IMG/VR virus record: IMGVR_UViG_3300025141_009410
Coordinates: 1-27,633 of that record
Source of the DNA: a virus
Strand: one strand, 5' to 3'
DNA: 27,633 nt
Positions 18,221 to 27,633 of this stretch are shown piece after piece (the first letter of the stretch is position 1; each line of letters begins with the position of its first letter). The position numbers and the translations under genes were made by a program. The notes beneath the pieces were generated by a model. That model was not told the origin of the DNA, did not search any database, and saw only the letters and a program-made list of their open reading frames with translations.

Positions 18221-19492
18221 TTATGCCAATGCAATTGTGGCGTTGAAGCCAGGTGCAGTGCAAAGCAGGTTACCGTAGTAGCCCCAGCGGTACTCTACGC
18301 CATCTTCGTTAGCTTGTCGGATTCCCTTCAAGCCATCGAAGTCGAGGAGACGAGGAGCTGCCCCAAGGGTCTTGAGCTTCCACGTATCCAGCTGGAGCAT
18401 GTAACACCGCCCTTGTGGACAGTTATGATCTGCATAAAGATCCAGCATTCCCGTTGGCGCAGCAAGCGACAATGAAGAGAAGCCAAAAGTTGCAGCAGAA
18501 TCATTTGAATCATAACGACGACGGTGCGGAGAGGCCCCAGAAGTGGCAGTCACCGTACCCTCAAGGTCTTTGGCCAACGAAGCCCAGTCAAGTGGGTTCA
18601 TGAACACCGCATCAGGACGACCACCCTCACGGGCAACCTGAACAGCACCATCAATCAGAGATTCGCGCATAGTACTGAACGCTCCCGCCAGACGCTGACC
18701 GCCGAGGCGGGTTGCATCAACTGAACGGTCAACGCCGAAAAACGCTGCCGCGCCAGGAGTGGCAGCAGGGATCCATGCAGAAAGACCAGACATCTTCTGT
18801 GCGGTGGAGCCATCCTGAGCATCACCCTCACAGTAGAGGACCAAGTCATCAGTGATTGTTCCCCACACTGTCTGCATTGCTGTTGCAATAGTAAACGTTC
18901 CGGCAGAACGATTAACCGTAAGAACCTCAACAGCAGCGCCGTTATTGGCCAAAGCAGTACCGTCGGCGGCACCTGACAAACTGGCAACAATACGCATTCC
19001 AACTTCAAAGTTCACAATGTCAGATGCCGTCTGAAGGGTAACGGTTGTTCCCGTTGCAGAGGTATCTTCATCAAGAACACCGATTGAGCCAGTGCCGCCT
19101 CGGTAAATATCTCGACCCATCGCACGCGCAAGCGCATGAAGAGCTGAGTCAGTTTTAGACTTAGCAACGTCAAGCAGAGAGCCCTCGCTACCATCAGCAG
19201 CAAGAAGCGTCTCGTTATCAACGCTGACTACCGCATAGTCCTTAACTCGAGTGACTACGAAGTCACTGAGCTTAGTGCCGTTGCGGTTGTTTTGCGCAGT
19301 TTGGAATGTCGCACTGCGGCCGTTAGTGAGACCATACTCAACCGCATAGGTTGCGTTTCGCCCAGGAAAGCTAGTTTCCTTAGGGATCATCGCAAGCAAT
19401 GGGTTGTTCTGGTAGACCATATTTTCGACCTTCTTATACGGGTACATGTGCTTCATGGCCGCGTCGAAGTTCGTTAAGTTAAAAGAAGCCAT
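18221..19492 (-). CDS. Major capsid protein (HK97-fold type)
   Basis: 423 residues. N-terminus (MYPYKKVENMVYQNNPLLAM, then IPKETSFPGRNATYAVEYG) fits the N-arm and E-loop of HK97-fold capsids; a spine-helix-like segment lies near 105-130; the C-terminal part (KLKTLGAAPRLLDFDGLKGI, then YRWGYYGNLLCTAPG) resembles the end of phage coat proteins. Residues about 148-223 are a beta-rich insertion (TTVTLQTASDIVNFEVGMRI, AVEVLTVNRSAGTFTIA) that could form a surface domain. The best ribosome binding site of the window (AGGAGGAAG) precedes its ATG, as expected for the most abundant virion protein. Directly preceded by the scaffold gene and followed by the candidate decoration gene. Confidence 0.85.
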   Translation of the reverse strand: MASFNLTNFDAAMKHMYPYKKVENMVYQNNPLLAMIPKETSFPGRNATYAVEYGLTNGRSATFQTAQNNRNGTKLSDFVVTRVKDYAVVSVDNETLLAADGSEGSLLDVAKSKTDSALHALARAMGRDIYRGGTGSIGVLDEDTSATGTTVTLQTASDIVNFEVGMRIVASLSGAADGTALANNGAAVEVLTVNRSAGTFTIATAMQTVWGTITDDLVLYCEGDAQDGSTAQKMSGLSAWIPAATPGAAAFFGVDRSVDATRLGGQRLAGAFSTMRESLIDGAVQVAREGGRPDAVFMNPLDWASLAKDLEGTVTATSGASPHRRRYDSNDSAATFGFSSLSLAAPTGMLDLYADHNCPQGRCYMLQLDTWKLKTLGAAPRLLDFDGLKGIRQANEDGVEYRWGYYGNLLCTAPGFNATIALA

Positions 19493-20380: not shown

Positions 20381-22327
20381 CTAAATAGGTAGATTTCCCA
20401 TGCCCGGCGGTAAGCCAGGGGGGAGACCTCCAGCCCCAGGAGGACCGGCCGGGGGAAGCGGCAGACCACCGCCCGGAGCTGGAGGCATTGCGAGACCAGG
20501 AGGTAGGCCCGGAGGAGGTCCGGGAGGAAGTCCTGGCGGCATACCCATACCAGGTTGCGCGCCCGGCATAGGCGGCGCCCCCATTGGCGGCGGGGGCTTC
20601 GTTGCTCCAAGCAAGCTATCAGCTTGGGAAATCCAACGACGCAATAACTCTCGGCGTTCTTCTGGAACGTCTTCGAGAATCGCAAGGTTATAGGCTGCCT
20701 GAACTCGTTTGATGCCGAGCTCTAGGTTCATGTAGGGCTCGGGTCCGATGTACTCACCCTCTTCTACCATCTTTTCAACAGCCATATCGATTACATCTAT
20801 GTGAGCATTCTTGATTCTATTGGCTCGTTCGATGTCTGGGAAGTCGAGCAACTGGTGCGCCTCTTCCTTGGAGAACATCCCGTTGAGCATCATCTCATTT
20901 ACCGAGGCCAGCTTGGCCGCCGGCGTCTGAGGCAATGAGCCGACAGGCTTAACCTGAATAACATACTCGTCGTGGTCTAGATTAATCTCCGACCACTTCA
21001 CAATCTCTAGGCCTGTCTTCCGGTCGAAACTCTTAGAGGTGAAGCTGCCATCTCCGCTGGAAACATCCCTCACCAGCTCGATGATTTGTTCGGAGATATC
21101 AAGGAAGAGCTGCTCATAAGCCTGACCCACGACCATGAATCTCTCAGACTCGATGTCCGAGAACTCTCTGAGGGCTCGACCTGACTCTAGGCCAACTGGC
21201 TTTTTGCTCTGCGCTGCAAGCTGGGAGATGCCCGTCATCTCGTAGGCCCGCTCAACCAGTCGGTCTAGGTGGGAGAACATCTCACCTGATACAGCTCTAG
21301 GGACAAAGAACTGTGGTGGCGTTCCTCGATACTTCATCACTCCCCACACTCGGTTATTCATGTGGGCTTGGACAATCTTAGAGGAATCCTCGATGAAGAC
21401 TTTGGGAGTAGCCAGGTGCATCTGCTCTTGGATTCTCGCCAGGAGCTTGTTGATCTCAACCTGGATTCCCTTCACCTCTTTGCTCAGGCCATTGCCCCAG
21501 AAGGACATTGGGTTCTCAGTCCATCGCATGAAGGCAAACGGGAAGTATCCTTTTTCCCAGGGCTCATCGAGCAGGGTGATTGAGTCGATACAGATAATAT
21601 GTCGGCCATCGGTGGCGTCTGGGCCGGACGGCAGGTGCCATGCTTCGTGACACTGGATCATGTCACTCTTGCGCGCATCCTCTTCACTGTACTCGTTCTC
21701 TTCAATGGCGGCAGCTTCAACAATCGAATTACGGTGCTCGGGAAACATCTCAGCTAGAACGTGTCTAGATAGTCGCTTTGTCTGGAACAACTGGCGCGGG
21801 CTGTTTCCATTCTCCACCTCGAGCGGGTCAAGCGTTAGCTCATGCGGGGGAGTTCTCTCGGCCTTAATCTTCCCATACTGCTCGAAGATTTTGACAGCCC
21901 CAGTCCCGTAGATGCAGGAATCGAGGAAAGCTCGCTGAGCTACCTGGTAGATCCGCATGTCATAGAACTGACCCTGGATGAACTTGTTGAAGAGCTGGGC
22001 CTTTCTCTTCTGGGAGAATGAGCCCCCATCTGTCAGGAAACTAACCGCAGGACGGTGTTTTGCAATCTTGGCCGTAGCCGCCTGACAGATGGAGTGAACA
22101 ATATTGAATGTTAGTCTTGGCTGACGCATCAAGGCGTAATTGGTGGACCCCTGGAGGAACCGAGCGTGCGGAGGTGCCCCATTATAGAGACCACCGAATA
22201 CCGCGTTATCAGCGTAGTATGAATCCTGCTCATCTCTGAGCACTGTTACAAACTTACTGATTTGCCGATGAATGTTATCCTCATCAGCAAGCCACCAGAA
22301 GGTATCATCAAATACGCCGTAACTCAT
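20381..22327 (-). CDS. Portal protein
   Basis: 648 residues, between T7 gp8 (536) and P22 gp1 (725). The N-terminal part contains the portal-like stretch RLTFNIVHSICQAATAKIAK followed by HRPAVSFL, a beta-rich wing, and helical stem and crown regions (KPVGLESGRALREFSDIESE, FLDISEQIIELVRD). It would form the dodecameric DNA gate at one capsid vertex, contacting TerL and the adaptor. Residues from about 573 are an unusual Pro/Gly/Met/Leu low-complexity tail. The ATG overlaps the upstream stop as ATGA, and the gene sits in the standard terminase-portal-scaffold-capsid order. Confidence 0.88.
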   Translation of the reverse strand: MSYGVFDDTFWWLADEDNIHRQISKFVTVLRDEQDSYYADNAVFGGLYNGAPPHARFLQGSTNYALMRQPRLTFNIVHSICQAATAKIAKHRPAVSFLTDGGSFSQKRKAQLFNKFIQGQFYDMRIYQVAQRAFLDSCIYGTGAVKIFEQYGKIKAERTPPHELTLDPLEVENGNSPRQLFQTKRLSRHVLAEMFPEHRNSIVEAAAIEENEYSEEDARKSDMIQCHEAWHLPSGPDATDGRHIICIDSITLLDEPWEKGYFPFAFMRWTENPMSFWGNGLSKEVKGIQVEINKLLARIQEQMHLATPKVFIEDSSKIVQAHMNNRVWGVMKYRGTPPQFFVPRAVSGEMFSHLDRLVERAYEMTGISQLAAQSKKPVGLESGRALREFSDIESERFMVVGQAYEQLFLDISEQIIELVRDVSSGDGSFTSKSFDRKTGLEIVKWSEINLDHDEYVIQVKPVGSLPQTPAAKLASVNEMMLNGMFSKEEAHQLLDFPDIERANRIKNAHIDVIDMAVEKMVEEGEYIGPEPYMNLELGIKRVQAAYNLAILEDVPEERRELLRRWISQADSLLGATKPPPPMGAPPMPGAQPGMGMPPGLPPGPPPGLPPGLAMPPAPGGGLPLPPAGPPGAGGLPPGLPPGMGNLPI

Positions 22328-22628: not shown

Positions 22629-24152
22629 CTAGTTGGCCCAGAGCTCAGTATCCTGATACCCTTCGCCCCATAGTTCTTTATCGTACTGATTTGTATCCTG
22701 TTCCTCAAGCAATCTCTGCTCGATCTTGTCCTCAAGCTGCTTGAAGTATGCATCACTCCCGTATTCAGGGGGCTTTTTAGCCTCCTCAAAGAAGAAATGC
22801 TTGCTCTCCATCCACGCATAGAGGGCAGCATCCGAGAGGTGGTTGTCATATCTGCGGTCTTCGGCGGTCTTTGACTTGTTGTATTGGAGTTTATCCCACT
22901 CTTTGAGCAGCTCCATGCCCGGTTTTACCCGGATAAGGGCCGAAGCCAGGTCAGAGTTCATGAGTTTAATCATGCCGACCTTGTCTCCAGTCTTTTTGGC
23001 AGCTTTGAGGGGAAGGCCAGAGCGCTGTTTGAAGGATTCGAGAAGCATTTTGGAGCTACCGCCACCAGTATCCATAACGATTGAGGTGAAGTTGTAGTCA
23101 TTCATGAAGCGTTTAATCTTCTCTTCAACCTCCGAGATGAGCATCTTGGTCTCTTTGTATTCATCTACGATGTAAAGGTAGGGTGATTCAGGGCACCATC
23201 CGACAACCACAAAGGCGGTAGCATCGTGATACCCAAGGTCGATACCCATGACGTATTCCCACTCATTACTGTCGGGGGTTTCATGAAGCAGGTTGTGCTC
23301 ACCGTAGGAATAGACGATGTCTTGGTCGTCGCGGACCCAGAGGCCAAGGTATTCTCGTTTGAAGGATGGATCTCCTGGTCGGAGGATCCCATTCTTAATA
23401 TCTTCCTCGATAGCGCGGACTGCATGTCGCATGTACGGGTTATCTTTCACTGTCCACCGGTGAACTGAGAAACTATACTTCTCCTTCTCGGTGATATCGA
23501 AAAAGAACCCGGTACAGGCACTGTTAGGCGTGGAGATCATGACCAATGAGCCGTCCTTATCCAGAAGGGCTGGGGTCAATACTTCGTTCACGAGCTCCTG
23601 CAAATCAATATTGAAGAAGGCAGCCTCATCGAGGACGGCCAGGGAGAAGGCTGCACCACGTAGCTTATCCACATCCGAGGCATCATTGGCCCCAGTGAAT
23701 ATGATCTGAGAGTTATTCGTAAAAGTGGCTATGAGGTCAGCATTGTTGAACTTAATCCCCAGGCGATACTTCTGGTTCAACTCTTTCAGTGAGGTCCAAA
23801 GGATACGCTTAGCTGCTTCCCTCGTTCTGGCAATGTAGACGCAGAGGGTGCTTTCGTTATCGAGACACTCTTTGACGAGGTAACGCCCTGCGGCAAAGCT
23901 CTTTCCGCTTCGTCGACTACAGATAGCTGCTTTTCGGCGACTAGGGTCTTTGACGAACTCGACTTGCTCCTTGAAGAGCGCTTTCTCAATGTTGAGCACA
24001 TGACTTCGCTTCCTTTGTCTTCTTTGGGCCTCATTGGGCCCCGTGGACTTCTGGCCAAGACGAACAGCGAGCGCCTCGAGCACTTCTCGGCTCGTAAGAG
24101 TCACAGAGGGCAGGGCCTCACTCTTCTTACTGGAGGACACTATTTTCTCCAT
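22629..24152 (-). CDS. terL: Terminase large subunit
   Basis: 507 residues from ATG 24152 (a TTG one codon earlier is less likely; GGAAG lies seven bases before the ATG). ATPase: Walker A CSRRSGKS at about 79-86, Walker B LAVLDEAAF at about 172-180, coupling motif VMISTPN at about 205-211. Nuclease (RNase H-like fold): GIDLGYHDA with D306, VMDTGGG with D362, and NHLSDAA with D442 supply the metal-binding acids (numbered from the TTG). It pumps DNA through the portal into the procapsid and cuts the concatemer. It overlaps the end of the GNAT-like gene by 26 bases. All key residues appear intact. Confidence 0.93.
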   Translation of the reverse strand: MEKIVSSSKKSEALPSVTLTSREVLEALAVRLGQKSTGPNEAQRRQRKRSHVLNIEKALFKEQVEFVKDPSRRKAAICSRRSGKSFAAGRYLVKECLDNESTLCVYIARTREAAKRILWTSLKELNQKYRLGIKFNNADLIATFTNNSQIIFTGANDASDVDKLRGAAFSLAVLDEAAFFNIDLQELVNEVLTPALLDKDGSLVMISTPNSACTGFFFDITEKEKYSFSVHRWTVKDNPYMRHAVRAIEEDIKNGILRPGDPSFKREYLGLWVRDDQDIVYSYGEHNLLHETPDSNEWEYVMGIDLGYHDATAFVVVGWCPESPYLYIVDEYKETKMLISEVEEKIKRFMNDYNFTSIVMDTGGGSSKMLLESFKQRSGLPLKAAKKTGDKVGMIKLMNSDLASALIRVKPGMELLKEWDKLQYNKSKTAEDRRYDNHLSDAALYAWMESKHFFFEEAKKPPEYGSDAYFKQLEDKIEQRLLEEQDTNQYDKELWGEGYQDTELWAN

Positions 24153-24564
24153 CAAGTATCTTCCAGATCACAGTAGGAAGTAGATTCCCCACATAGCGAG
24201 CGTTCCACTTCTCCTTAGCTCCCAGTTTCTGCATATGCCATGACCAGAAGGTACAGAAGATAGCACTGCCCACATCTGGGTATATCTTCCTCAGAAGGTC
24301 ACGAGCTACCCCGTTTTTACGGAAGTTCTTCTTCACAAAGATGAAATGGAGGAGCGGAGTCTCTTCTAGGGTCCCATGGGCCATCCATCCGATGATATGG
24401 TCTGGGTCGTCGTCAGGACACCAGACTTGAATGGCATCTTGACGCACAAGGTCGTCAATGAGGCAGCGGGTCATACCCGTCACTGCTTTAGTCGGGCATT
24501 TTACGGAGTGGAGCCATGAGTGGTAGATGAAATCATGGTCCAGTGGCTTTATCTTGCGAATCAT
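24127..24564 (-). CDS. GNAT-like acetyltransferase-fold protein
   Basis: 145 residues. The pattern HIIGWMAHG (about 56-64), LLHFIFVKKNFRKNGVARDL (about 71-90) and a following helix matches GNAT motif A, where R-x-x-G-x-A contacts the acetyl-CoA pyrophosphate. The typical N-terminal I-R-x-I-K-P-x-D start of GNAT proteins is also present. It overlaps the probable small terminase gene upstream by 32 bases and TerL downstream by 26. GNAT-like proteins next to terminase genes recur in short-tailed phages; their role is unknown, and a packaging-linked or host-modifying activity is inference. Confidence 0.7.
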   Translation of the reverse strand: MIRKIKPLDHDFIYHSWLHSVKCPTKAVTGMTRCLIDDLVRQDAIQVWCPDDDPDHIIGWMAHGTLEETPLLHFIFVKKNFRKNGVARDLLRKIYPDVGSAIFCTFWSWHMQKLGAKEKWNARYVGNLLPTVIWKILDGENSVLQ

Positions 24565-24985: not shown

Positions 24986-25008
24986 GTGACTACGGTCACC
25001 CTTTAGGC
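24986..25008 (+). repeat. UACG-loop hairpin followed by CCTTTAGG
   Basis: GTGAC (24986-24990) and GTCAC (24995-24999) pair around TACG. On the + strand this is a C(UACG)G tetraloop, the very stable UNCG type. CCTTTAGGC follows immediately at 25000. The 11-mer ACCCTTTAGGC here (24998-25008) recurs at 27040-27050, on the other side of the lone rightward gene. Confidence 0.65.
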
Positions 25009-25090
25009 GGACGCGCAACCCTTGTCGCCCTCCGGCCCTAGATGAAAAACCTAGACATTTAGAGCCTACCCAGTTGGATTCCGACAAGGG

Positions 25091-25112
25091 CAACGGAGGT
25101 AGCTTACCGTTG
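25091..25112. repeat. Inverted repeat CAACGG/CCGTTG
   Basis: CAACGG (25091-25096) and CCGTTG (25107-25112) are perfect inverted arms around ten bases, with an inner GGTA/TACC option, so a small stem-loop can form on either strand. Function unknown. Confidence 0.5.
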
Positions 25113-25267
25113 ATGCACAATACAGGTACCCAATCCTGCGGGCTTTCTCTAGGTCAATCCGAGGGGGGGTGCTTTATAAGGGTACTACCTGTGACGCACT
25201 GCACTACACTGAAACTGGCTAAAAATTCATGGAGGGTGTTAGGTTGCCCTGGGGTAAAGTTGAAAGA

Positions 25268-25361
25268 GGGGGGACCCCCCAAGAACTCGGCAGGCTCGTC
25301 GAAGGCTCGAACAAGTTCGACGGTCGATCGAGTACGCTCTCCAATGACCGGGAGTACCCGG
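25268..25361. repeat. Cluster of three compact palindromes
   Basis: Three perfect dyads follow each other: GGGGGG/CCCCCC around one base (25268-25280), TCGAAC/GTTCGA around AA (25307-25320) and CCGGG/CCCGG around AGTA (25348-25361). They lie in non-coding DNA and lack adjacent U-tracts, so they are not standard terminators. Confidence 0.6.
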
Positions 25362-25371
25362 ACATTCTTCA

Positions 25372-25399
25372 TTGAGGGGAAACCCCTCAAACTCCCCGG
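25372..25399 (+). repeat. Hairpin-plus-C-tag element, copy 1
   Basis: A perfect 8-bp stem TTGAGGGG/CCCCTCAA with loop AAA (25372-25390) is followed at once by ACTCCCCGG (25391-25399). The same architecture, a GGGG/CCCC-cored stem and then RCTCCCCG, occurs at 26919 and 26981 beyond the lone rightward gene. Confidence 0.65.
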
Positions 25400-25400
25400 A

Positions 25401-25423
25401 TGAGACCTCAAGCGCCGGTCTCA
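25401..25423. repeat. Inverted repeat TGAGACC/GGTCTCA
   Basis: Seven-base perfect arms (25401-25407 and 25417-25423) surround nine bases. It starts two bases after hairpin copy 1, so together they can fold into two adjacent stem-loops. Confidence 0.6.
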
Positions 25424-25580
25424 AACTCAGGCTGCTCCATCTTCAGATCTAACACATCACTGCATAACCATAGCTACTCGAGTTTCATATCCATGTAACT
25501 GCTTGTTATTGCGTAGTTGGCTTTGCTGACTCTGTGACAAAACGACGGTAGCTACTCACTAAAAAGACGCTTAGACGCGG

Positions 25581-25791
25581 GATGCATAGAGCATCGGTCA
25601 GCATATACGCATCGTTTACAGTCACGACACAATCCAAGCGATTGACACTCATTCGTTTACTATTGTCGTTTTCTCTTGGACGATCGTCAATCCGCTCGAT
25701 ACTACTGTACTCAGTAGATGAGAGAGGGCGCGGGACACACACCGACCCAACAACAGCCCAACTAGGGCGCACAACAAGTCACAATAGTGAC
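25581..25791. promoter_or_regulatory. Four short dyads upstream of lone rightward gene
   Basis: Within about 210 bases there are GATGC-5-GCATC (25581-25595), the uninterrupted palindrome GACGATCGTC (25679-25688), CTACTG-4-CAGTAG (25702-25717) and GTCAC-4-GTGAC (25778-25791). The last ends seven bases before the AGGAG ribosome binding site. Such spacing and size would suit binding sites for dimeric regulators or RNA structures controlling the gene at 25811, but their sequences differ from each other, so one common operator is not shown. Confidence 0.4.
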
Positions 25792-25797
25792 GCACAT

Positions 25798-25802
25798 AGG
25801 AG
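25798..25802 (+). promoter_or_regulatory. Ribosome binding site fixing the start at 25811
   Basis: AGGAG is followed by eight bases and ATG 25811. This makes the ATG the likely start, rather than the in-frame GTG at 25787, which lies upstream of the site and inside the GTCAC/GTGAC dyad. Confidence 0.75.
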
Positions 25803-25810
25803 CCAATCAC

Positions 25811-26863
25811 ATGGCAACACTAGACATGAGAACACAGCCTATCAACATCGACATGAACTCAAACCTCGACAACGTGATGGCTATCCAAGCAAAGCGCATG
25901 GAGATGGGAGCCAACGGCATCGGCAAGTCTGACCTAACCGCCAAGTTCGGTGGGGAGATTGACTTCGATTGGTTGGGTGTCGTGACCGAGTTGAACGTCG
26001 AGGTCGCGGTACGCAAGGAAGAAGCTAAGCCTTACCCCATCGACCTCGGCGACGGTCAACCACGCCAGGCCACCCTCGAAGCGCTCAAGGCGATAACAGC
26101 CAAAGCCCTCACAGCAGCACAGACCTCATCACAGTTCGGTGCATCCAAAGAAGAGACCCAACTCAATTGGGATGTGTGGACAATGTGGTCCGAGCAGCGA
26201 GACACCGTGCAGGCTATCATCGACCGCGCCAAGGGCGAGAAGACCCGAGAATATCTCATCGAGTTCGGTTGGGTGCCTGAGAACGCCGACGAGTGCGAAA
26301 TCGTTGCCGCATGGGTAGACGCCACCGTGAACAACTTCAAAGCCATCAACCCGCTCATCTTGCAGGCAGGTTGCCCAGCGAAGAAGAACCTCAAGGCGAA
26401 AGCACGGTTCGCGAACCCAGACCGCAAGAAGGCGACGCTGCAGCACTTCGAGAGCGCACTCTCGGAGGCTATCGTCCTGAAGGAGAAGCACGACGCCCGC
26501 ATCGAGCGCCAGGAGAAGAAGACGTACACCGTGGAGGGTGACAACGGTCAACTCAAGGGTGCCGTTGGAGTCGTAGCCAACGCGGCAGACCGCATGAAGG
26601 CGATGTTCGACACAGAGCAGGCAGAGCGGGCGGAAGACCCCATCGAGGCAGCGGCAGACGCAGCACGAGGAGCAAAGCTTTACAAGGAGATGGCAGGTCT
26701 CGACCCGAGAACACCGGACGAGATCCTCGCTGCGGGCGCTAAGGCAAAAGAGGAGTGGCGCGAGGAGCAGGAGCACAAGGAGCGCAAAGCACTGATTGAC
26801 GGTGCAATGAGCCGACTCGCCGCAGTCGAGGCAGAAGAAAAGGCGGCACGGCAGGCAGGCTAG
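25811..26863 (+). CDS. Lone rightward gene of unknown function
   Basis: 350 residues starting MATLDMRTQPINIDMNSNLD. The only well-supported rightward gene before the window end. It is soluble-looking, rich in Ala, Lys and Glu, with Trp-containing central motifs (IDFDWLGVVTELNVEV near 45-60; LNWDVWTMWSEQRDTVQAI near 112-130), a basic patch (CPAKKNLKAKARFANPDRKK, about 190-210) and a long charged helical, probably coiled-coil C-terminus (about 270-350). No signal peptide, membrane segment or catalytic motif was recognised. Codons end in G or C much more often than in the leftward genes, suggesting a different history or expression class. Structured non-coding DNA lies on both sides. Possibilities include an early/accessory phage protein or horizontally acquired cargo; I cannot choose between them. 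Confidence 0.75.
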   Translation: MATLDMRTQPINIDMNSNLDNVMAIQAKRMEMGANGIGKSDLTAKFGGEIDFDWLGVVTELNVEVAVRKEEAKPYPIDLGDGQPRQATLEALKAITAKALTAAQTSSQFGASKEETQLNWDVWTMWSEQRDTVQAIIDRAKGEKTREYLIEFGWVPENADECEIVAAWVDATVNNFKAINPLILQAGCPAKKNLKAKARFANPDRKKATLQHFESALSEAIVLKEKHDARIERQEKKTYTVEGDNGQLKGAVGVVANAADRMKAMFDTEQAERAEDPIEAAADAARGAKLYKEMAGLDPRTPDEILAAGAKAKEEWREEQEHKERKALIDGAMSRLAAVEAEEKAARQAG

Positions 26864-26876
26864 ACAACCCGGGCAC

Positions 26877-26902
26877 GGGGGAGGGTGGAAACGCCCCCCC
26901 CC
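26877..26902 (+). terminator. GNRA-capped hairpin after lone gene
   Basis: Thirteen bases after the stop codon, 26877-26887 pairs with 26892-26902 as an 11-bp G/C stem with one A-C mismatch and one G-U pair, closed by a GAAA loop. In the rightward transcript this would be a very stable 3' hairpin. It is followed by A-rich rather than U-rich sequence, so it is not a classical intrinsic terminator and may serve mainly for 3'-end protection. Confidence 0.6.
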
Positions 26903-26908
26903 AAGTCC

Positions 26909-26941
26909 AAAAAAAATTTCGAGGGGCTTCGCGCCCCTCGA
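26909..26941 (-). terminator. Strong leftward intrinsic terminator
   Basis: Read on the minus strand, a perfect 9-bp stem TCGAGGGGC/GCCCCTCGA with a 5-base loop (26941-26919) is followed after two A residues by eight consecutive T (26916-26909). This is a textbook intrinsic terminator for transcription coming from the right, so it would stop antisense transcription of the lone gene. The same stem is hairpin-plus-C-tag copy 2 when read rightward. Confidence 0.75.
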
Positions 26942-27142
26942 GCTCCCCGCGATTAATGAGGGCGAGTACGCCCACAGATTGCGAAGGGCAAGCCCCTCGC
27001 GCTCCCCGTGTCTCCGACGGCTTAGGGCACGCCCTAAGAACCCTTTAGGCCTCCGGCGGCCCTCGCGGGACGACCAATCACTACGCGTGAGGCGTTAGGC
27101 GCTGCCTAAGACCGCTAGGGGCTGGTTGCCCCTTAGAACCCC
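26919..27142 (+). repeat. Array of hairpin-plus-C-tag elements, copies 2-6
   Basis: Five successive stem-loops, each followed by a C-rich tag, fill the stretch after the lone gene: 26919-26950 (9-bp stem, tag GCTCCCCGC); 26981-27009 (9-bp stem with one mismatch, tag GCTCCCCGT); 27021-27043 (CTTAGGGC/GCCCTAAG, tag AACCC); 27095-27114 (TTAGGC/GCCTAA, tag GACCGC); 27115-27142 (CTAGGGGC/GCCCCTTAG with a bulge, tag AACCCC). Stems differ in sequence but keep base pairing, as expected for structure-level selection or a mobile palindromic repeat family. No gene is seen between 26864 and 27136. Confidence 0.6.
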
Positions 27143-27166
27143 ACGCGGCCTAGCACATCATACGGT

Positions 27167-27379
27167 ATGACAGTAGGGACTCCGACAATGCCCAGCATTC
27201 CTAACGGAAGAGGGCGAGGGGCTTTCCCCACCACCAGGAAGAACCATTCTTCAAATTTCCGGGTGAGGGGCATCCACCTAAACAATTCGACGCACTCTAT
27301 CATAGGACCAGGTCTTCCAAACAGAAGAGCTAAAGTCATCGTCTGGAATTACGACACCCAATCAATTGGGGTAACATAA
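27167..27379 (+). CDS. Possible small protein, or 5' part of a broken gene
   Basis: 70 residues from ATG 27167, basic and Asn/Gly-rich at the N-terminus (MPSIPNGRGRGAFPTTRKNH), ending in RAKVIVWNYDTQSIGVT before TAA. There is no good ribosome binding site at this ATG or the next one (27188). The same frame continues open for another 74 codons after the TAA (27380-27601), so this may be the first part of one longer gene interrupted by a stop. No family recognised. Confidence 0.3.
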   Translation: MTVGTPTMPSIPNGRGRGAFPTTRKNHSSNFRVRGIHLNNSTHSIIGPGLPNRRAKVIVWNYDTQSIGVT

Positions 27380-27601
27380 AAAACGGTACCACACGATGAC
27401 TGGACATTGCTCAAGCAGCTGACCTCAAGGATCCCAGGTAGAGTGCATCTTTCGAAATTTAAAGAGCTATCCTTCTGGGGTGCGGGACAGGAAAGAATAC
27501 CACCCCCTTATCGGTCCAACCCCGTGAGTATGTATTTCGACAAATTTAACCGGGCACATATACGCCCACTCATATCTCAAGGAGAGATGCATGATCTTTA
27601 G
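27380..27601 (+). other. Open segment continuing the same frame after TAA
   Basis: 74 codons without a stop in exactly the frame of the preceding segment, with protein-like composition (VHLSKFKELSFWGAGQERIP, SMYFDKFNRAHIRPL). The two other rightward frames contain stops within the first 45 bases, at 27397 and 27420. The only early start is TTG 27407, without a ribosome binding site. It ends 11 bases past the start of the next gene. It could be the 3' part of a broken or readthrough gene, or chance. Confidence 0.3.
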
Positions 27602-27633
27602 TAAAATTGGTTTAGCCTCACTGATGGATCCAC
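27591..27633 (+). CDS. 5' end of a gene running off the window
   Basis: ATG 27591 is preceded by AAGGAG (27579-27584) with a six-base spacer, an ideal translation start. The frame reads MIFSKIGLASLMDP and remains open at the window edge. Only 14 residues are visible, so no function can be given. The strong ribosome binding site compared with the weak ones just upstream suggests this is a well-translated gene. Confidence 0.55.
   Translation, partial: MIFSKIGLASLMDP

Follow-up and report, generated by a model that had tools for sequence, protein, structure and literature searches.

What, if anything, do the hairpins that surround the only rightward gene of this phage have to do with one another and with the gene they bracket? 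The window (the whole 27,633-nucleotide stretch of viral DNA analysed here) carries its structural genes leftward and a single gene rightward, with one stem-loop before this gene and five after it, each followed by a C-rich tag. An earlier note had described the six and had considered a palindromic repeat family that moves, an RNA-processing signal, or recombination points through which phages exchange accessory genes. Our analysis leads us to view the elements, with a probability of roughly 0.6, as potential intrastrand-triplex DNA repeats, REP-like in character and common to some alphaproteobacteria and phage.

A lone rightward gene in non-coding surroundings

The genes for the terminase, the portal or head-tail adaptor and the head protein run leftward on the 27.6-kb contig (Table 1). 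We take the phage to be probably marine, on account of the sample sets behind its relatives as read from the IMG contig names. The first 25 kb of the window matched no known phage by megablast, similarity searches of the whole window and of the end regions against known phages returned no homologue, and the terminase and portal, consulted as clues to the host, gave remote matches only, to phages with many hosts. The product of the lone gene matches neither a Pfam nor a PHROG family at E 0.001; there were no Rfam matches at the gathering score, and a tRNA search found none. The difference in codon use that had been claimed for the lone gene is confirmed, with a GC3 of 0.71 compared with 0.49–0.61 in the leftward genes. 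At the right end of the window (27143–27633) the open reading frames are short and unconvincing, and this end has neither a relative in the collections nor an independent copy in the phages that were searched.

All six stem-loops were recovered where they had been described, with the nearly identical tag RCTCCCCG after elements 1, 2 and 3 and ACCC-type tags after the other three. A further hairpin, absent from the earlier note, lies at about 25263–25290 and is positionally conserved in every relative read (L003, L004, L006, L007 and L009).

Table 1 Features of the window and layout of the hairpin elements.
Feature	Position	Strand	Description
Head protein	18221–19492	leftward	
Portal or head-tail adaptor	20381–22327	leftward	
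Terminase	22629–24155	leftward	
Further hairpin	25263–25290	+	GGGGG-GAC-CCCCC, partial CTC tag
Hypervariable spacer holding element 1	25283–25567	.	L003 98.8% identical to 25282, then wholly different
Element 1	25372–25398	+	stem TTGAGGGG/CCCCTCAA (8 bp, 25372–25390), loop AAA (3 nt), tag ACTCCCCG
Conserved leader of lone gene	25575–25810	+	
Lone gene	25811–26863	+	350 aa
Putative leftward intrinsic terminator (element 2)	26911–26941	-	TCGAGGGGC-GCGAA-GCCCCTCGA then AATTTTTTTT
Element 2	26919–26949	+	stem TCGAGGGGC/GCCCCTCGA (9 bp, 26919–26941), loop TTCGC (5 nt), tag GCTCCCCG; six triplets, spacer GAG
Element 3	26981–27008	+	stem GCGAAGGGC/GCCCCTCGC (about 26982–27000, one A/C mismatch), tag GCTCCCCG; Y side a perfect mirror
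Element 4	27021–27043	+	stem CTTAGGG/CCCTAAG (7 bp, 27021–27038), tag AACCC; about 4 triplets (G, G, G and T·A-T)
Element 5 (weak)	27095–27113	+	stem TTAGGC/GCCTAA (6 bp, 27095–27109), tag GACC; about 3 triplets, under all search thresholds used
Element 6	27115–27142	+	stem CTAGGGGC/GCCCCTTAG (6 bp and bulged T, 27117–27133), tag AACCCC; about 5 triplets

Hairpins of this kind could arise by chance in G/C-rich non-coding DNA. By folding energy only elements 1 and 2 stand out (z −2.7 and −3.2), elements 3 to 6 being weak hairpins (−0.9 to −1.7), and RCTCCCCG taken alone, with four occurrences in the window versus 1.95 in shuffles, is near expectation. However, elements 1 and 2 have the common layout [GAGGGG..CCCCTC]-RAR-CTCCCCG, and the combination of hairpin and tag, GAGGGGN{3,9}CCCCTCRARCTCCCCG, is found twice in the window and in none of 100 shuffles. 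Taken with the controls for opposite polarity and direct order and with the bacterial copies described below, this refutes chance for elements 1 and 2 and makes it a scarcely credible account of the set, although element 5 may be a chance hairpin.

A tag that mirrors the pyrimidine arm

A property overlooked in the earlier note is that the RCTCCCCG tag of elements 1–3 mirrors the 3′ arm (CCCCTC-AAA-CTCCCC, CCCCTC-GAG-CTCCCC and CCCCTC-GCG-CTCCCC, respectively). The length of the C run is the same in tag and arm in all six elements, being 3, 2 and 4 in elements 4–6. In element 1 the six triplets would be formed by the purine arm GAGGGG (25374–25379), the pyrimidine arm CCCCTC (25383–25388) and, beyond a spacer AAA, the third strand CTCCCC (25392–25397), so that the minus strand reads CGGGGAG-TTT-GAGGGG..CCCCTC, a class I arrangement. 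As far as sequence can tell, the layout is that of a potential intrastrand triplex motif (PIT/TM) in the classification of Holder et al. 2015 (PMC4666352), in which a third-strand purine segment followed by the purine and pyrimidine arms, the order on our minus strand, defines class I, the plus strand being class III.

In place of a covariance model the analysis relied on pattern scans and permutation tests, because the relation between tag and stem is a parallel mirror match, which lies beyond such a model. The triplex-motif scan gave four motifs in 26864–27633, compared with a shuffle mean of 0.095 and a largest value of 1 in 200 shuffles, and one motif in 25000–25810, while motifs of the opposite polarity were found in neither region. 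Measured by the ITxF rule (three consecutive segments of third-strand R, R and Y whose triplets match, a length of 6 nt or more, and loops of 1–6 nt), element 1 conforms in full, with 6 perfect triplets, a loop of 3 and a spacer of 3; element 2 also has 6 perfect triplets and a spacer of 3, with 7 nt between its 6-nt arms, just above the loop limit. Elements 3, 4 and 6, with 4–5 perfect triplets, and element 5, with about 3, fall short of the rule. It counts against a triplex reading that the ITxF minimum of 6 perfect triplets is reached in only two of the six phage elements, and that one stem is mismatched. Over-representation relative to scrambled sequence is observed both in the window and in bacteria.

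The elements resemble the TM_ECO/BoxC motif of E. coli (Hoyne & Maher; PMC4666352), which likewise consists of a hairpin with R and Y arms and a mirror third segment, with a 3-nt second loop, and which is intergenic, patchy in close relatives and set in variable surroundings. They differ from it in polarity and uniformity: TM_ECO is ordered Y arm, R arm, R third strand (class II), has 9 triplets and occurs in near-identical copies (PMC4666352), whereas the phage elements are ordered R third strand, R arm, Y arm (class I), have 3–6 triplets and varied stems, and form tandem arrays. The TM_ECO/BoxC pattern of class II polarity, CCCTCNCCC-N3-6-GGGNGAGGG-N3-GGGNGAGGG, is present in neither of the two non-coding regions, and its authors found TM_ECO in no phage (PMC4666352).

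Occurrence in bacterial and viral genomes

At least 119 bacterial contigs contain the exact hairpin and tag pattern. With the pattern relaxed slightly, 11 viral contigs match (the window's near twin and 10 others), compared with 1 when the tag is put in direct order as a control; the proposal of a palindromic repeat family is thereby borne out. Among the matches listed, most belong to Rhodobacterales and Acetobacteraceae, and others are scattered over Chloroflexota, Actinomycetota, Nitrospirota and one Patescibacteria bin. There are 14 exact copies in one Rhodovarius and 6 copies in Tateyamaria, and element 3 is matched at 28 of 29 bp on a Leisingera plasmid, between two convergent genes. By sequence, the repeat family is real, its polarity is opposite to that of E. 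coli BoxC, and its location in a phage is unusual. As to the suggestion that the family moves, the patchiness is suggestive: in the family of Tateyamaria 2 of 61 genomes have the pattern, and in its class 1 of 190 does (query genome included in both). No mobiliser came to light, however.

Classical REP elements or REPINs moved by a RAYT (TnpA_REP) transposase would also be expected to appear as short palindromes between genes, tagged at one end, patchy and at times in inverted clusters. REP elements are, however, defined by a GTAG or CGTC tag at one end (PMC3733652), whereas the tag here is CTCCCCG (CGGGGAG on the other strand) and covaries with the stem. Furthermore, neither the Rhodovarius genome with the 14 exact copies (G003) nor Roseovarius (G012) has a Y1/RAYT gene. 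Tateyamaria does have a RAYT, but the hairpins just downstream of it are GTAA-tagged and of other sequence, and one related hairpin, CGAGGGGC..GCCCCTCG-TG-CTCCCCG, lies about 1.4 kb away rather than at the RAYT ends. With no RAYT in Rhodovarius or Roseovarius, and a Tateyamaria RAYT that is not flanked by the element, the link was rejected, and mobilisation of this kind is very unlikely.

Two bacterial genomes show further repeat arrangements. Six loci of Rhodovarius crocodyli (L150, L158, L160, L161, L165 and L166) hold intergenic mosaic arrays of 2–3 different hairpin-tag units in fixed order, followed by a spacer that contains sequences of the TTGGCGCC type and in many cases then by an inverted array; in appearance these arrays resemble MITEs or REPINs without a recognised transposase. 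A 2.7-Mb bin labelled Paceibacterota (G007) contains a high-copy repeat, GAGGGGCTTATGCCCCTCAAACTCCCCG, in 22 identical copies, which in the three loci read (L045, L127 and L142) is followed by a conserved sequence beginning CTGGATTGCCAGCCGCTCAAA.

Covariation of tag and stem

The varied stems of the bacterial hairpins allow the fit between tag and arm to be compared across units. In a sample of about 1.9 Mb from five alphaproteobacterial genomes, 65 of 514 distinct mixed R:Y hairpins carry a tag that fits their own arm by the triplex rule (for example, arm/tag pairs CCCTTCC/CCATCCC, TCCCTCTC/CTCTCCCT and TTCTCCCC/CCCCTCAT), whereas permuting the tags among the hairpins gave 24 such fits on average and never more than 40. 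The counting of distinct units removes shared descent of copies only in part. Opposite polarity gives 11 matches versus 8.2 expected. A reading of the tag as a direct repeat (slipped pairing) was ruled out by the direct-order controls, which yield 21 matches versus 65 in the same hairpins and 1 viral contig versus 11. Where all G-C positions match, the third base opposite A-T pairs is T in 48 cases, A in 40, G in 17 and C in 6, a preference of the kind that A·A-T and T·A-T triplets of the purine motif permit.

Taken genome by genome, the excess is clear in the Rhodovarius, Acetobacteraceae and Rhodospirillales samples and borderline in Maritimibacter (11 matches; permuted mean 5.1, largest 11), and there is no excess in Tateyamaria (2 against 2.1). 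Motifs of class I/III exceed shuffled sequence in every sample (Rhodovarius 39 vs 2; the others 22 vs 5, 16 vs 4, 12 vs 4 and 6 vs 2), at densities that are somewhat raised because samples of several genomes were partly placed at known exact elements.

Position relative to gene ends

Could the hairpins simply be transcript ends, i.e., intrinsic or Rho-type terminators or protectors of RNA 3′ ends, with an incidental C tag? Element 2 lies 55 nt past the stop codon of the lone gene and has a T8 tract on its minus strand, which gives it, leftward, the layout of a G/C-rich hairpin followed by a T tract that resembles a Rho-independent terminator; the other elements are without it. The bacterial copies favour gene 3′ ends as well, with 43 in convergent, 18 in sense, 7 in antisense and 6 in divergent position; in the genome samples, whose spacer classes are of about equal amount, the corresponding numbers are 25, 16, 8 and 4. 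Both sets of counts rest on crude ORF calls. In the sense direction, however, the hairpins are followed by a C-rich tag and not by a T tract, they occur in arrays, element 1 sits between divergent genes, and a terminator gives no reason for the tag to be a mirror copy and to vary together with the stem. Untagged R:Y hairpins lie 3′ of genes equally often, and position therefore reflects a gene-end niche and is no evidence for a function of the tag, an argument that was accordingly dropped. The earlier suggestion of an RNA-processing signal may still hold, given the bias towards gene 3′ ends, but untagged hairpins have this bias too; transcript ends as the whole explanation are possible but rather doubtful.

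The spacer and the gene behind it in related phages

Relatives L003 to L013 are 87–99% identical to the window across most structural genes, the remotest being L011 and L013 (66–74%). Past 25282 their spacer is unrelated or strongly diverged as far as the conserved leader at about 25575. Element 1 is absent from L003, L004, L006, L007 and L009, and the near-identical L001 is its sole other carrier among the relatives that reach the spacer; as judged from these relatives, element 1 is lineage-specific and lies inside a fast-changing spacer. The gene that follows the leader differs in each phage, the window and L003 sharing a C-terminal stretch only (34% over 79 aa). The contig of L001 ends inside the lone gene, and that of L003 at a junction matching about 26919.

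These comparisons bear on the idea of exchange points for accessory genes, which is no more than a possibility: relatives do have other genes at the site, but the left part is hypervariable in phages without hairpins too, and the repeats are therefore not needed for variability. A phage replication or packaging site could also present itself as a same-strand cluster in non-coding DNA between operons, and there are indeed five hairpins on one strand in 225 nt of non-coding sequence. Against such a site, close relatives keep the spacer and are missing element 1, and the same elements are scattered across bacterial chromosomes, which makes it most improbable.

The region has other features of interest. 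The 235-nt leader, 78–82% identical in L003 and L007, precedes different genes, so that a start site is retained upstream of changing genes. Another short repeat, ACGCT(N0-5)(A/C)CGCGGGA, has 7 copies in 270 nt of the hypervariable spacer of L003 (L003:1924–2189, minus strand) and single copies in the window (25567), L006 (134) and L007 (598). The spacer of L009 (259–368) contains an insertion of about 80 nt that has GGTGTAGCAGAAGTAGCAGGTC close to one of its ends and AGAGTGCTACTCCTGCTAC close to the opposite one, the ends being partly inverted.

Discussion

The reading of the elements as potential intrastrand-triplex repeats builds on their layout and polarity, their excess over chance, the covariation of tag and stem in bacteria, and a patchy distribution. 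Each unit comprises a purine 5′ arm, a pyrimidine 3′ arm and, about 3 nt further on, the pyrimidine arm again in mirror order. On a single minus strand, the purine tag GGGGAG could fold back antiparallel onto the purine arm GAGGGG, forming G·G-C and A (or T)·A-T triplets of the purine motif (class I). On this view the repeats are part of a REP-like population of some alphaproteobacteria, and recombination probably accounts for their sharing with this phage.

With respect to function, the elements may act in replication or recombination, where a folded strand would pause the polymerase and leave the spacer prone to deletion and exchange; the same hairpins may double as transcript ends, element 2 serving as a leftward terminator. 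A role in pausing and rearrangement has been proposed for the E. coli motif, which formed a triplex in vitro and has raised variability around it (PMC4666352). Our confidence is kept moderate because no triplex footprint of that motif was seen in vivo, nor any promoter or terminator activity (PMC4666352). More tentatively, and with a good deal less assurance, we suggest that the family is selected for a purine-motif triplex of the G-rich strand, with a third strand that co-evolves with each stem, and that it travels between phages and the chromosomes of alphaproteobacteria without the help of a RAYT and acts as a pause or recombination point at the level of DNA.

For bacterial triplex motifs it has long been undecided whether selection favours them as triplexes, partly since the near-identical copies of E. 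coli cannot covary. Here the stems vary widely and the tag follows, with a T/A swap mainly opposite A-T pairs, which amounts to a natural test of triplex selection; the carriage of the repeats by a phage suggests a route by which they travel.
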